The notes under the pieces were generated by a model. The model ran no database searches. It worked only from the letters and a program-made list of their open reading frames with translations, and was not told the origin of the DNA. From Nocardia brasiliensis (GTDB lineage Bacteria; Actinomycetota; Actinomycetes; Mycobacteriales; Mycobacteriaceae), in NCBI RefSeq assembly GCF_011801125.1, contig NZ_CP046171.1, positions 2,232,001 through 2,296,000 on the forward strand: a stretch of 64,000 bases of DNA, read 5' to 3'. Made by a program: the position numbers and the translations under genes. Every line of letters starts with the position of its first letter. The first letter of the stretch is position 1. This document shows, one piece after another, positions 45,316 through 57,766 of the stretch.

Positions 45316-46560
45316 GTGGGTGTTGCACTTGTCAAGGGGCAGAACGGAGTACTGACCGAGCCTCGGGTGGTGTTGTCGGTGCGTACCGAGGCGGACATCG
45401 ATGTGTCGGCCTTGCTGGTGACCGAGGCCGGTGTCGTGCGCTCCGACGCCGATTTCGTCTTCTTCAACCAGCCGAGCGGTCCCGGTGTGCGGCTGCGCAC
45501 CGAAGCCGGTGCCGAGCTGGAGATTTCGCCCGCCGCGGTGCCCGCCGAGATCGCGCAGGTGCGCGCGGTCCTGACCCTCGCGGACCCGGCCACGACGTTC
45601 GGGCAGTTCGCCGCGCCGGTGGCGACGCTGGCCGACGGTGCGGGAAACCCGTTGTACGAGTATCGGATCGAGGGTTTGGCGAGCGAATCGGTGGTGATCG
45701 CGCTGGAGCTGTACCGGCGCGCGTCGGCGTGGAAGGTACGGGCCGTTGGCCAGGGGTACGCGGGCGGCTTCGCGGCGCTGGTCACCGATCACGGTGTGCG
45801 CGTGGACGATGCGCCTGCCCCGCCGCCGCAACAGGTGCGCACGGTGCCCGGCGAGGCGGCGCTGTCGTTCGAGAAGCGCGAGAAGCTCGATCTGCGCAAG
45901 CGCGCCGTCGCGAAGGTGCTGATCGACAAGGACGCCTTCGGGATTCGCGCCCGGGTGGTGCTGGTGCTCGACAAGACCGGCAGCATGGTCGCGCAATACC
46001 GCGAACACGTGGTGCATCGAGTCGTGCAGCGCATGGTGCCGATCGCGACCCAGCTCGACGACAACGGCAGACTGGAGGCCTATCTGTACGCGCGCTCGTT
46101 CGCCAAGCTGCCCGACATCACCGTCGAGCACAGCGACGAATGGGCGCAGACCTACCTGCACCTGCGCGGAAACCACGGCGACATCGATTACGACCGGATC
46201 GGCGGGCGCAACGACGAACTTCCGATCATGCGCGACATCCTGTCCTCGGTGCGTCCCGGCGACGGGCCCACCCTGGTTCTGTTCTTCACCGATGGCGGCT
46301 TCGCGAACAAGCGTGAGATCAGCGCGCTCATGCGCGAAGCGGCACGGCTGCCCGTGTTCTGGCAGTTCATCGGATTGGGCATGGCGAACTACGGACTGCT
46401 CCGCACGCTCGACGAGCTGACCGGCCGATTGGTCGACAACGCGGGCTTTTTCGCCCTCGACGACATCGATCGCGTCGACGACGGTGAGCTGTACACCCGC
46501 CTGCTCGGCGAATTCCCGGACTGGCTACGCGCCGCCCGCGCCGTCGGCGTGCTGCCCTGA
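45316..46560 (+). CDS. TerD-vWA (TerF-like) protein
   Basis: A 414-residue two-domain protein. Residues 1-165 are a TerD domain (ADIDVSALLVTEAGVVRSDA, DFVFFNQPSGPGVRL; ELYRRASAWKVRAVGQGYAG) with the acidic residues that bind calcium. Residues 210-405 are a von Willebrand A domain whose MIDAS motif is D219-K-T-G-S223, with Thr at the usual second position, and a later FFTDGGF. TerF-type proteins belong to Ter stress/defence systems. GTG start behind AAGGAG. A second TerD protein is at 53.6 kb. Confidence 0.9.
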   Translation: MGVALVKGQNGVLTEPRVVLSVRTEADIDVSALLVTEAGVVRSDADFVFFNQPSGPGVRLRTEAGAELEISPAAVPAEIAQVRAVLTLADPATTFGQFAAPVATLADGAGNPLYEYRIEGLASESVVIALELYRRASAWKVRAVGQGYAGGFAALVTDHGVRVDDAPAPPPQQVRTVPGEAALSFEKREKLDLRKRAVAKVLIDKDAFGIRARVVLVLDKTGSMVAQYREHVVHRVVQRMVPIATQLDDNGRLEAYLYARSFAKLPDITVEHSDEWAQTYLHLRGNHGDIDYDRIGGRNDELPIMRDILSSVRPGDGPTLVLFFTDGGFANKREISALMREAARLPVFWQFIGLGMANYGLLRTLDELTGRLVDNAGFFALDDIDRVDDGELYTRLLGEFPDWLRAARAVGVLP

Positions 46561-48633: not shown

Positions 48634-48912
48634 TCAGCCGATGACGGCGTTCATGATGGTGCCCGCGCTGGTCGCGACGACACCGCCGATCATGGCGCCC
48701 GCCACCATCTTCGGCGATTCCAGGCCGCCGCCGGTCCATTTCTCCCAGGCGAACCGGCCGCCCGCGTAGATGATGGCCACGATGCCGGCCAGTAGCACGA
48801 ACCAGGTGAAGTAGCGAACCAGTTGGAGGATCTTGTCGGAGACCGGCGGAGCTTCGGGGCTGGGATTGCCGATCTGCGCGAGCAGGGTGTCGTAAGCGGC
48901 GGCCAGGATCAT
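48634..48912 (-). CDS. TrbC/VirB2-like small membrane protein (copy 1)
   Basis: A 92-residue protein with two hydrophobic helices (TWFVLLAGIVAIIYAGGRFA; MVAGAMIGGVVATSAGTIMN) joined by a short positively charged loop. This hairpin layout is that of VirB2/TrbC pilins of type IV secretion, although no signal peptide is seen. It is clearly a paralog of the protein encoded at 49337-49633 (shared NPxPEAPPxSDKILQxVRYxTW). No other T4SS genes are visible, so its role is unknown. Confidence 0.72.
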   Translation of the reverse strand: MILAAAYDTLLAQIGNPSPEAPPVSDKILQLVRYFTWFVLLAGIVAIIYAGGRFAWEKWTGGGLESPKMVAGAMIGGVVATSAGTIMNAVIG

Positions 48913-49336
48913 CGTCGTCAGCTCATTCTGGGTTCGGGACAGGGCAGGAAAGTCGCTGCCTGTGATGGTATCGGTTTGTTCGCTGCGATGCGGCTTTCCG
49001 TTCGTGCCGATGCGAGTCGGCGCCGCAAGGAAGTTCGGTGTCCTGCGCACCTTGCCGGGGTTGCCGATGGCCGGGATGATGGAGGGGCGCGGTGACCGGG
49101 TAGCCCGATGACCGCGCGCCGCCGGCGCCGCCGACGGGTTGCTACTACCGCTTGGGGGAGACTGCGCGGAACACGGCGTGCGACTCGGCGCGAGGCGTGT
49201 GCACTGTTGCCTACCGGGTACCCACGGGAGTGTCGATGAGCCCGTATCCTCGTCTGAGATCGAATTCATCGGCGGTTTAACAGCTTTCGTGTGGCGGTTC
49301 GGCGGCGACACGGTTGTAGTGGAGCGTAGGGAGTAG
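48913..49336. other. Divergent intergenic region between the two VirB2-like genes
   Basis: About 420 bases with no supported gene. Both promoters must lie here. No strong palindrome or SigF-type box was found, and open frames on both strands look spurious. Confidence 0.4.
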
Positions 49337-49633
49337 ATGGTGAGCATCATTCTGGCGTCGGTCGGCGATACCCTCACGACACTGGCGCAGGTCGGAAACC
49401 CCACGCCGGAGGCGCCGCCGCTGTCGGACAAGATCCTGCAGATGGTTCGTTACCTGACCTGGTTCGCGCTGCTGTCGGGCATCCTCGCGATCGTCTTCGC
49501 GGGCGGCAAGTTCGCGTGGGAGAAGTGGCAGGGCGGCGCGTTGCAGTCGCCGAAGATGATCGCGGGCGCCATGGTCGGCGGTGTCGTGGCGACAAGCGCG
49601 GGCACCATCATGAACGCGGTGCTCGGCACCTGA
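49337..49633 (+). CDS. TrbC/VirB2-like small membrane protein (copy 2)
   Basis: A 98-residue paralog of the 48634-48912 product, with the same order: Gly/Pro-rich NPTPEAPPLSDKILQMVRYL, first helix TWFALLSGILAIVFAGGKFA, loop EKWQGGALQSPK, second helix MIAGAMVGGVVATSAGTIMN. AGGGAG precedes the ATG. The two copies are divergently transcribed and differ at many conservative positions, pointing to an old duplication with inversion. Confidence 0.74.
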   Translation: MVSIILASVGDTLTTLAQVGNPTPEAPPLSDKILQMVRYLTWFALLSGILAIVFAGGKFAWEKWQGGALQSPKMIAGAMVGGVVATSAGTIMNAVLGT

Positions 49634-52830: not shown

Positions 52831-53550
52831 ATGAGTAACCCCAGACCCCGGGGCCGCTCACCGCTCGTGACCGATGCCGAGATCCGGCGGGTGGCCAGGA
52901 CGCTGTTGGTCGAGCAAGGGCCCGACGCGGTGAGTTTGCGTGCGATCGCGCGCACCCTCGGTATCACCGCGCCCGCGCTGTATCGGTACCACCGCTCGCT
53001 CGACGAGCTGATGGAACGGCTGCGCCTGGAGTTCTGCGCCGATCTCGCCGCCGAACTGTCGGCCGAGATCGCCACCCTGCCCGACGACGGGGTGGTGCAG
53101 TTCTTCGCCATCTGCAAGGGGTTTCGGCGCTGGGCGCTGGCGCACACCAGGGAGTTCACCCTGGTGTTCGCCTCGCCCGGCGGCGATGAGACCAGGGCGC
53201 TGCGTCGCTTCGACGAGCCGTTCGGCCGGATCTTCCTCGCCGCGGCGGGCAGGCTGCTGGCCAACTACGACATCGTCACCCCGCCGACCGACGTGATCCC
53301 GCCGGAGTTGCACGAGGACCTGGTGCACTTCCAGACCGAGTTGCTCGCCGCGCTCTCGGAGTCCGGTCAGAAGTTCCCGGCCGAGAAGCTCGACCTGGGC
53401 GTGATGTATCTGATGATCCAGATCTGGGCACGGCTCTACGGGCACGTCACGCTGGAGGTGTTCGGCAACTACCCGATTCCGCTGTCGAATCCCGAGGTGC
53501 TCTTCGACGCGATGCTCGCCGATCTGGGGCGCACGGCGGGCCTGACCTAG
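52831..53550 (+). CDS. TetR-family transcriptional regulator (WHG-domain type)
   Basis: A 239-residue TetR protein: HTH LVTDAEIRRVARTLLVEQGP, DAVSLRAIARTLGITAPALY, RYHRSLDELM, then a WHG-type C-terminal ligand domain (FRRWALAHTREFTLVFASPG). TAATCT eight bases before the ATG could be a -10 box of a leaderless transcript, which favours this ATG over the one 21 bases earlier. It lies 54 bases after cyp125, but is not obviously KstR itself. Confidence 0.88.
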   Translation: MSNPRPRGRSPLVTDAEIRRVARTLLVEQGPDAVSLRAIARTLGITAPALYRYHRSLDELMERLRLEFCADLAAELSAEIATLPDDGVVQFFAICKGFRRWALAHTREFTLVFASPGGDETRALRRFDEPFGRIFLAAAGRLLANYDIVTPPTDVIPPELHEDLVHFQTELLAALSESGQKFPAEKLDLGVMYLMIQIWARLYGHVTLEVFGNYPIPLSNPEVLFDAMLADLGRTAGLT

Positions 53551-53582
53551 GCAACGGCAGTCGGCGGAGCAGCTACGACGGC

Positions 53583-55421
53583 TCAGATGCGGGCTCCCTT
53601 GGCGCGGTTGCAGGCGCGGCACAGGATCTGCAGATTGGCCGCGCTGGTGGCGCCGCCGCGGCTGAGCGGGATGATGTGGTCGAACTCGAGGTAGTGGCTG
53701 TCACCGCACTCGACGCACTTGCCGCCGTCGCGTTGCCATACTTCGGCTTTCACCTCCTGCGGGATGCTGCGGGTGTCGCGCTGTCCCGGCGTGAGGATGA
53801 GGCGCTTGGCCACCCGCAGCGCGCCCTCCAGCGCGGCGGCGACGTGGTCGGGGTCGTTCACCGTGAAGCTGGCGCCGCCGCGCGCCGAGGTCGCCGCGAG
53901 CACCACCGTGTTCTGCTCGGTGTGCACCGAAACCACACGCGACCACGGCAATTCGACGCCGGTGCCGTCGCCGACGAAACGCAGCTTCTTGTTGCTGACG
54001 ATCAGTCTGCCCTCGGTCAGCCGTGGCCCGCGGGCCAGCTGACGCACGTGGATCGCGGGCAGGTCGAGATGTACCTTCTCCTCCGGGTCCAGGTGCAGGC
54101 GCGGCGTGCGCACCACCGGCAGCTCGCCGGCGCGCAGCCGGGACAGGCTGCGGCCCCGGTGCATTCGCCTGCGCAGGTCCTCGATCAGCGGGCCGGACAG
54201 CAGCAACTCCTCGACGGCGTGCTCGAAGGCGGCCAGCTCGCCCTGTTCGACCTCGCCGTCGGCGAAGGTGAAGGCGACCAGTCGTTCGACATAGCCGAGT
54301 GCCGCGTCGTGCAACGCCGCGCGGCCGGCGTTCTCGTCGATGCGCTGATACCGCAGTGACGCCCACAGCGCCGCCCATTCCGGCCCGCGCGGTCCGTGCG
54401 TGGTGAGTACCCGCCACGCCTGACTGTGCCAGTGCAGGAGGAACTCCTCGATCTCGGCCGCGCACCGCTCACACGGCGCCGGGCCGCGGAACAGCCTGCG
54501 CCGCCGGGGGTTTGCGCAGCGCGCGCAATGCCGTTCGTCGGGCGGGCGGCGCGGGTGCGTGGCCGAGGTCCACTCGGCGCCGTCCCACCAGCGCAGTCGC
54601 GCGGAGTTCTCCGGGTCCGGATGCCATTCGGCCCGTTCGGGATTCGGTGGTGGGGCAGGCGGGGCGGTCTCGACCGGGCGACGGGCGAGATCGACCGGCC
54701 GACCGTTACGCGCGCGGACGGCGCTGTCCGGCACGGAAGGAAGGGACTCGGTGGTCTCGCGGCCGGCCTGCTCGGGTGCGTCGAGCAGACCGGCGCGCGC
54801 CGGGTCGCGGTCGGTTCGCGCCGAGTCGCGGGGAAGCTGTTCCGGCGCCGGGAAAACGGCGGGTTCGCGCGGCGGGCGACGGCCCGCGGCGGACCCCGTC
54901 CCGCGCGATCCGTCGGCCGGTTCGTCGACGGCGACGCCGAATTCGGTGACCAGGCCGGACAATCCGGTGGACCAGCCTTGCGCGATGGCACGGAAGCGCC
55001 ACTGCTCGTCCCTGCGGTAGAACTCGCCGAACATCAGCGCGGTGACCGGATCGGCGTCCTCGATGGCGAATTCGGTCATCGGACCGCTCGCGTCGTGAAT
55101 GGTCAGCCGCAGCCCGGTGAGGTCGGCGAAAGTGCCCTCGTCGACCGAGCCGCCGATCACGATCCGCTGCACCGCCGCCTCGGTGCGCGGCAGCGAGACA
55201 CTCAGCCGTGCCGTGCCCGGCGCGGGCTCCTGATCGATGGTCACGGCCTGCGAGATGTGCCGCGGCGCGTTGTAGAAGACCAGATCCCGGTCGCTGCGCA
55301 CCGTCCCCGTCGCGTCGAGCAACAGGGCATGCCCGTCCACGGCGTGTGCCGACTGCCACGAAACAACCACGGCAAGAAGGGATGTCGGTACCGGTGCGTT
55401 GGCGCCTTTGCTGAGTTTCAT
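53583..55421 (-). CDS. Multi-module TerD-DUF2510-PH/GRAM-like-HNH protein
   Basis: A 612-residue modular protein. Residues 1-168 are a TerD domain (ATGTVRSDRDLVFYNAP; FGEFYRRDEQWRFRAIAQGW). A Pro/Arg-rich linker leads to a DUF2510 motif (WHPDPENSARLRWWDGAEWT, 266-285) and a Cys4 zinc ribbon (C299-C302-C317-C320). Residues 325-430 are helical and recall TerB (FADGEVEQGELAAFEHAV). Residues 438-535 look like a bacterial PH/GRAM domain (RLIVSNKKLRFVGDG). An HNH nuclease ends it: C569-C572, D581-H582, C601-C604. It probably links Ter-type sensing to DNA cleavage. Single gene, between TetR and PabAB genes. Confidence 0.85.
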   Translation of the reverse strand: MKLSKGANAPVPTSLLAVVVSWQSAHAVDGHALLLDATGTVRSDRDLVFYNAPRHISQAVTIDQEPAPGTARLSVSLPRTEAAVQRIVIGGSVDEGTFADLTGLRLTIHDASGPMTEFAIEDADPVTALMFGEFYRRDEQWRFRAIAQGWSTGLSGLVTEFGVAVDEPADGSRGTGSAAGRRPPREPAVFPAPEQLPRDSARTDRDPARAGLLDAPEQAGRETTESLPSVPDSAVRARNGRPVDLARRPVETAPPAPPPNPERAEWHPDPENSARLRWWDGAEWTSATHPRRPPDERHCARCANPRRRRLFRGPAPCERCAAEIEEFLLHWHSQAWRVLTTHGPRGPEWAALWASLRYQRIDENAGRAALHDAALGYVERLVAFTFADGEVEQGELAAFEHAVEELLLSGPLIEDLRRRMHRGRSLSRLRAGELPVVRTPRLHLDPEEKVHLDLPAIHVRQLARGPRLTEGRLIVSNKKLRFVGDGTGVELPWSRVVSVHTEQNTVVLAATSARGGASFTVNDPDHVAAALEGALRVAKRLILTPGQRDTRSIPQEVKAEVWQRDGGKCVECGDSHYLEFDHIIPLSRGGATSAANLQILCRACNRAKGARI

Positions 55422-55531
55422 CGTCCCCGAACTATGCCACGACCCTCCGACACGCCGAGCTCGCCGGTGGTCCGGTTCGGCGGGGCGGGGCCGCGTACGA
55501 CGCGTTTTTCCAGGCCGCGACGGTAGTCGGT

Positions 55532-57766
<2,235 letters not shown>

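Follow-up and report, generated by a model that had tools for sequence, protein, structure and literature searches.

The fusion of a TerD domain to a nuclease has a precedent in Deinococcus. According to PMC10614293, which cites Makarova et al. 2001, DRA0057 of D. radiodurans joins an endonuclease domain to the TerDEXZ/CABP family, and D. rubellus Ant6 is without this protein. Because DRA0057 is already in print, a TerD-endonuclease fusion as such is not new. What we add is the range of the family: the protein from Nocardia described here is a variant of the known TerD-HNH fusion. Its separate parts are also familiar from other systems. The Ter (tellurite, stress, phage) system with TerD, TerF and TerB shares the TerD and TerB-like domains, and the HNH endonucleases (PF01844; IscB/Cas9/McrA-like) share the full HNH motif. 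Single domains are held in common with anti-phage systems, since TerB occurs in Shango and Bunzi, and HNH in Septu and Zorya II, according to PMC10952713. A literature search at the level of titles and abstracts, with Anantharaman 2012 and Makarova 2001 outside its scope, found no account of the Nocardia form, its PH/GRAM domain, the loss of the calcium loop or the prophage copies.

The window, by which we mean the whole stretch of 64,000 nucleotides of Nocardia brasiliensis DNA that was analyzed, contains a TerD-HNH gene on the minus strand that we confirmed to be genuine and to encode 612 residues. This gene, its modules and two neighbors are as follows:

53583..55421, minus strand: gene for the TerD-DUF2510-ribbon-TerB-PH/GRAM-HNH protein (P0001, 612 aa); open frame and translation, Pfam matches, start shared by homologs
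54927..55421, minus strand: TerD domain, residues 1-165, calcium-loop-less type; PF02342 at residues 2-161, structural model, Foldseek match to TerD 3ibz, loop deletion
54651..54926, minus strand: hypervariable disordered linker, residues 166-257; pLDDT <50 at residues 169-246, identity 0.30, length 30-324
54537..54626, minus strand: DUF2510, residues 266-295; Pfam PF10708, E 3.1e-7
54462..54527, minus strand: Cys4 zinc ribbon, C299-C320; cysteines retained in 153-154 of 154 proteins
54132..54470, minus strand: TerB-like helical part, residues 318-430; five modelled helices, PF05099 in aligned relatives, D388, G389 and E395 retained
53808..54083, minus strand: PH/GRAM domain, residues 447-538
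53586..53774, minus strand: HNH nuclease domain, residues 550-612; PF01844, eight key residues in 154/154 proteins, identity 0.91
55532..57766, minus strand: pabAB-like gene (glutamine amidotransferase and chorismate-binding, Pfam), the conserved upstream neighbor, 110 bp off
45316..46560, plus strand: TerF-like gene (TerD and vWA-TerF; PF10138 E 2.3e-77, PF02342 E 9.3e-25), a possible Ter partner, 7.0 kb from the TerD-HNH gene

The module order of the original prediction (TerD, DUF2510, Cys4 ribbon, TerB-like part, PH/GRAM, HNH) proved to be real, with a disordered linker following the TerD domain, and homologs keep this order. The length range of the linker was measured in 144 of 154 Nocardia-type proteins. 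P0001 belongs to the TerD family by both sequence (PF02342, E 6.6e-27) and structure (Foldseek 3ibz, E 2.2e-11), and its PH/GRAM domain is predicted from the model to have the PH fold. The TerB assignment is tentative. P0001 does not match the TerB family PF05099, which exceeds its cut-off only in one relative (L158) and matches weakly in L227, L228, L231 and L155; precomputed annotation also gives this family to 5 of 82 proteins from the search with the D. radiophilus protein. Foldseek and VIA matches to the model of residues 317-542 were taken up by PH domains, and so say little about the fold of the TerB-like part.

The HNH domain is the best-conserved module of the Nocardia-type protein. 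Averaged over 1500 random pairs from 154 such proteins, pairwise identity is 0.91 for HNH, 0.80 for PH, 0.77 for TerD, 0.70 for the TerB-like part, 0.62 for the ribbon, 0.59 for DUF2510 and 0.30 for the linker. The eight HNH residues that we checked are retained in all 154 aligned proteins. The claim of a complete HNH was therefore sound: metal and catalytic residues are intact throughout the close relatives, and a loss of TerD or HNH from all close relatives, which would have spoken against a combined function, is not what we found. The motif is also present in 50 of 52 Deinococcus-type proteins and their kin, retrieved with the Deinococcus protein as query. The highest conservation among the modules, together with the invariant key residues, argues for a working nuclease; the pattern is that expected of a functioning HNH enzyme. 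The best NCBIfam match of this predicted nuclease is the HNH of IscB at residues 555-610 (E 9e-11), which falls far short of the cut-off. We rejected an IscB/Cas9-like identity because this match is limited to the HNH segment. Unlike IscB, the Nocardia protein has no RuvC or other IscB part that we could find, and the rest of it is of Ter type.

The TerD domain had been described as a calcium-binding sensor, and this description is not supported. The calcium ligands given for K. pneumoniae TerD in PMC8779313 are residues 40, 41, 42, 78, 79 and 89 for Ca1, and residues 29, 82, 84 and 88 for Ca2. We aligned the family to a canonical TerD from the window genome, the numbering of which was taken as equal to that of K. 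pneumoniae. Positions 87-89 are deleted and N79 is replaced by proline in 120/120 aligned proteins. D40 has given way to A, T or V in 105 of these 120; only D42 stays, in 119. Positions 79 and 82 are missing in 50/50 Deinococcus-type members. Since loop and ligand positions are lost in both Nocardia-type and Deinococcus-type members, we assign the domain to a calcium-loop-less type of TerD and rejected its reading as a calcium sensor. In D. radiophilus, the ter operon encodes three stand-alone TerD proteins, which retain all checked positions except 38. The TerF-like protein of the window is also without the calcium loop, and so are two proteins from provirus or contig sequences (L156, L151). 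A calcium-less TerD domain is a warning against taking every TerD for a calcium sensor.

How far does this architecture extend? The D. radiodurans protein of DRA0057 type shares TerD, ribbon, TerB-like part, PH-like domain and HNH in the same order, and aligns to P0001 with 34 % identity. In contrast to this protein, the Nocardia protein contains DUF2510 and the long variable linker, and its gene adjoins pabAB. DRA0057 is probably the gene of our D. radiodurans locus L227, judging from its domain content and from locus tags near bphP. The protein of this locus has Pfam matches to TerD and HNH, with TerB below its cut-off. The order TerD-ribbon-TerB-PH-HNH is common to D. radiodurans and D. radiophilus, and the search with the D. 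radiophilus protein returned 82 hits in all, with many Deinococcus proteins that contain TerD and HNH. Plasmid records covering 80 % of the query were 2 of 23 and 2 of 2597 for two queries, both from Deinococcus.

In Actinobacteria, a search at the level of the family (251 genomes, 21 of them Nocardia) detected the core in 8 of 230 non-Nocardia genomes. Three of these (G174, G371, G317) encode TerD-DUF2510-ribbon-TerB-PH-HNH, one (G164) has the Nocardia architecture without DUF2510, and four (G292, G320, G344 and the frame-broken G191) have the core without TerD and DUF2510. At the level of the order, 12 of 298 genomes have a match that passes E 1e-15, which four owe to HNH alone. At the level of the class, 27 of 394 genomes gave matches: 18 are in one other family (f32; G728 among these is partial), and four match in HNH only. 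The full order including TerD is readable in the f32 proteins. The predicted TerB-PH-HNH core is thus found again in other Actinobacteria, in Deinococcus and in prophages, sometimes joined to TerD and sometimes not. TerD is absent from Rhodococcus-type and some proviral relatives that carry this core, and is therefore not obligatory. One TerD-less relative (L069) has its frame broken inside the HNH end, through either decay or a sequencing error.

Within Nocardia the gene is near-core. Its C-terminal module is matched at E <1e-100 in 142 of 148 genomes. Among the remaining six, one (G122) has the TerD part before the contig ends, and five (G006, G085, G091, G105, G143) have pabAB without the gene in the stretch read. 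We examined 80 loci in the collection of named genomes, those ranking best of 463. TerD is present in 79 of them, including L130, where it is in frame; it lies off the contig in L122. Eight loci start shortly before the gene and have no located pabAB. In the other 72, pabAB immediately precedes the TerD-HNH gene in the same orientation, with one exception (L145), in which it is inverted and lies on the other side. The same-strand upstream position also holds for nine of nine more divergent Nocardia copies. With a neighbor fixed in 71/72 and 9/9 loci, the Nocardia gene does not behave like a mobile gene of a defence island, and we rejected such a setting. Between 46 and 1562 bp separate it from pabAB (median 626, 70 measured loci; 110 bp in the window). 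Spacing this variable does not imply a common transcript, and we do not regard the two genes as an operon. A scan of positions 53400-55700 found no sigma-70-type promoter and one terminator-like site, no more than in shuffles. Some Nocardia genomes (G072, G104, G110, G121 and others) contain second copies of the C-terminal module elsewhere, 53-57 % identical.

As to co-location with defence or Ter genes, a check proposed with the original prediction, the family does show a link to Ter genes, though not in every member. The D. radiophilus relative sits in a ter operon, the D. radiodurans copy is solitary, and 42 of 80 Nocardia loci have a TerF-like gene on the other strand at no more than 10 kb, or 36 of 66 if loci of 20 kb or more are considered. 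In Nocardia, pabAB marks a conserved housekeeping neighborhood and not a defence island. The D. radiophilus TerD-HNH gene heads a run of TerD, vWA, TerD, TerD and DUF475 genes, and divergent from it are genes for ATP-grasp, phosphoribosyltransferase, HAD, AIM24, StiP-protease and HpcH/HpaI proteins. Compared with the Ter system, P0001 adds PH/GRAM and HNH domains, its TerD is without the calcium loop, and its gene forms no operon with ter genes in Nocardia. In other Actinobacteria, 14 window and 14 ter query proteins revealed no ter operon beside the gene in 20 stretches, as far as the queried genes go; the exceptions were L306 and L308, where a TerD-like match lies close to a second copy. The window genome encodes 14 TerD domains, two of them canonical with a calcium loop, near 6.817 and 7.781 Mb. 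A ter phosphoribosyltransferase match lies 2.7 kb from one of these canonical TerD genes, and the ter region near 7.77-7.78 Mb combines a canonical TerD and such a phosphoribosyltransferase match with genes that we read by eye as TerC-like and HpcH-like. The Nocardia protein may work with Ter partners encoded elsewhere.

Relatives from virus contigs show a second setting. Two of them (L230, L234) encode TerD-TerB-like-PH-HNH, one (L157) the core without TerD, and L154/L229 ribbon-TerB-PH-HNH. The L230 gene lies 0.5 kb from an anti-repressor gene on a contig with tape measure, head and portal genes. The L234 gene adjoins an RDF gene at 1.4 kb from an anti-repressor gene, and the L157 gene adjoins a repressor gene at 0.8 kb from an anti-repressor gene; both contigs contain a baseplate gene. 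The GC contents are 0.41 (L230), 0.40 (L234) and 0.35 (L157). Annotated phage records covering 80 % of the query numbered 0 of 45 and 0 of 28 for two queries, and a megablast search found no E. coli genome with DNA near the L230 gene. The proposed link to phage thus survives for distant relatives, which are carried as prophage cargo, but not for a defence setting of the Nocardia gene. A TerB-PH-HNH relative also occurs in large virus contigs (L232/L233), between GtrB-like glycosyltransferase genes.

We now turn to the question as to what this protein may do. The reading that we prefer, and to which we give an even chance, is that of a nuclease effector of the Ter system, which its Ter partners would recruit or set free when the cell is stressed or attacked by phage. 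It is favored by the conserved cutting core, the swappable N-terminal Ter modules, the D. radiophilus ter operon and the prophage cargo, where two proviruses carry TerD-HNH and a third carries the TerD-less core, near anti-repressor genes among phage structural genes. The recurrence of TerD fusions to other nucleases (DEDDh exonuclease) also supports it, as do the TerD domains, the ter phosphoribosyltransferase match and the TerF-like gene of the window genome. In such an effector, the TerD/TerB end would dock on Ter partners (calcium-binding TerD proteins, TerF, membrane TerC) or bind a Ter signal, and the PH/GRAM domain would set the place of the protein by membrane or protein contact. Chemical stress, genome damage or phage attack would then release or activate the tethered HNH, which would cut DNA. 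Counting against this reading are the lack of an adjacent ter operon in the Nocardia and other actinobacterial loci examined, the solitary D. radiodurans copy with no ter genes beside it, the dispensability of TerD and the 5 of 148 Nocardia genomes without the gene. Since the Nocardia gene is a resident of the chromosome, a part in general stress or innate responses is more probable than one as a mobile defence cassette. A Ter-domain nuclease that is found in the ter operon of one Deinococcus, as cargo of temperate phages and in nearly all Nocardia genomes would provide a direct and testable link between Ter signaling and DNA cutting.

A broader form of this idea is tentative and, in our judgment, rather doubtful. 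It posits a pan-bacterial family of Ter nucleases in which a TerB-PH/GRAM-HNH core is combined with changing N-terminal parts (TerD, TerD-DUF2510, ribbon only, extra TerB) in bacteria and prophages, and is triggered by Ter signaling, through a signal read by TerD/TerB, and not by calcium. If true, such a family would be the missing DNA-cutting arm of the Ter system and would explain part of its effect on phage resistance.

Alternatively, the protein could be a self-contained anti-phage device, abortive or direct, in which TerD, TerB or PH would detect infection and the protein would cut DNA unaided. We consider this unlikely. Relatives do travel in prophages, in the vicinity of anti-repressor, repressor or RDF genes, which is a usual site of superinfection-exclusion genes. 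Several relatives have the TerD-less core by itself, and TerB and HNH each occur in known anti-phage systems, according to PMC10952713. Against such a device speak the fixed pabAB neighborhood and near-core presence in Nocardia, and the slow evolution of the folded domains. No defence genes were recognized among the nine genes scanned near the window gene. PADLOC models gave 11 weak matches (best E 1.4e-4), all of which fall within residues 547-612 at the HNH end, and no model covers the rest of the protein. Since TerD is not obligatory and there is no defence setting in Nocardia, the original prediction of a single-gene device is unproven.

Quite unlikely, too, is a nuclease of chromosome maintenance or DNA repair that processes damaged or stalled DNA under oxidative or radiation stress with no role against phage. 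Its near-core, vertical retention in Nocardia and its presence in many Deinococcus species would suit this function, and PMC10614293 treats DRA0057 among repair-linked Deinococcus proteins with unusual domains. However, copies travel as prophage cargo, no repair genes stand beside the Nocardia gene in the window neighborhood, and the protein is dispensable, being absent from D. rubellus Ant6 (PMC10614293) and from five of the 148 Nocardia genomes. A modified-DNA restriction enzyme (McrA-like, Type IV) with middle domains that read DNA marks is highly improbable, because the weak match of the HNH end to the PADLOC Type IV model (E 1.4e-4) and the McrA match in the PDB (6ghc, E 0.012) span HNH only, and in the models the middle of the protein folds into TerB-like helices and PH/GRAM, not into a known base-reading fold.

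Two minor observations concern the surroundings of the gene and other fusions of TerD. Between the TerF-like and the TerD-HNH gene, the plus strand encodes a small membrane-like protein of 98 aa (49337-49633) with no Pfam match, which is found in 68 of 80 Nocardia loci; a facing frame within 48634-49431 on the minus strand seems, by eye, to contain a second, similar copy. Such fusions (P0226-P0234, P0217-P0220, P0215) join TerD in Streptomyces to DEDDh exonuclease (PF00929) and to AIM24 (PF01987); a protein from a metagenome has PF13588 as the partner.
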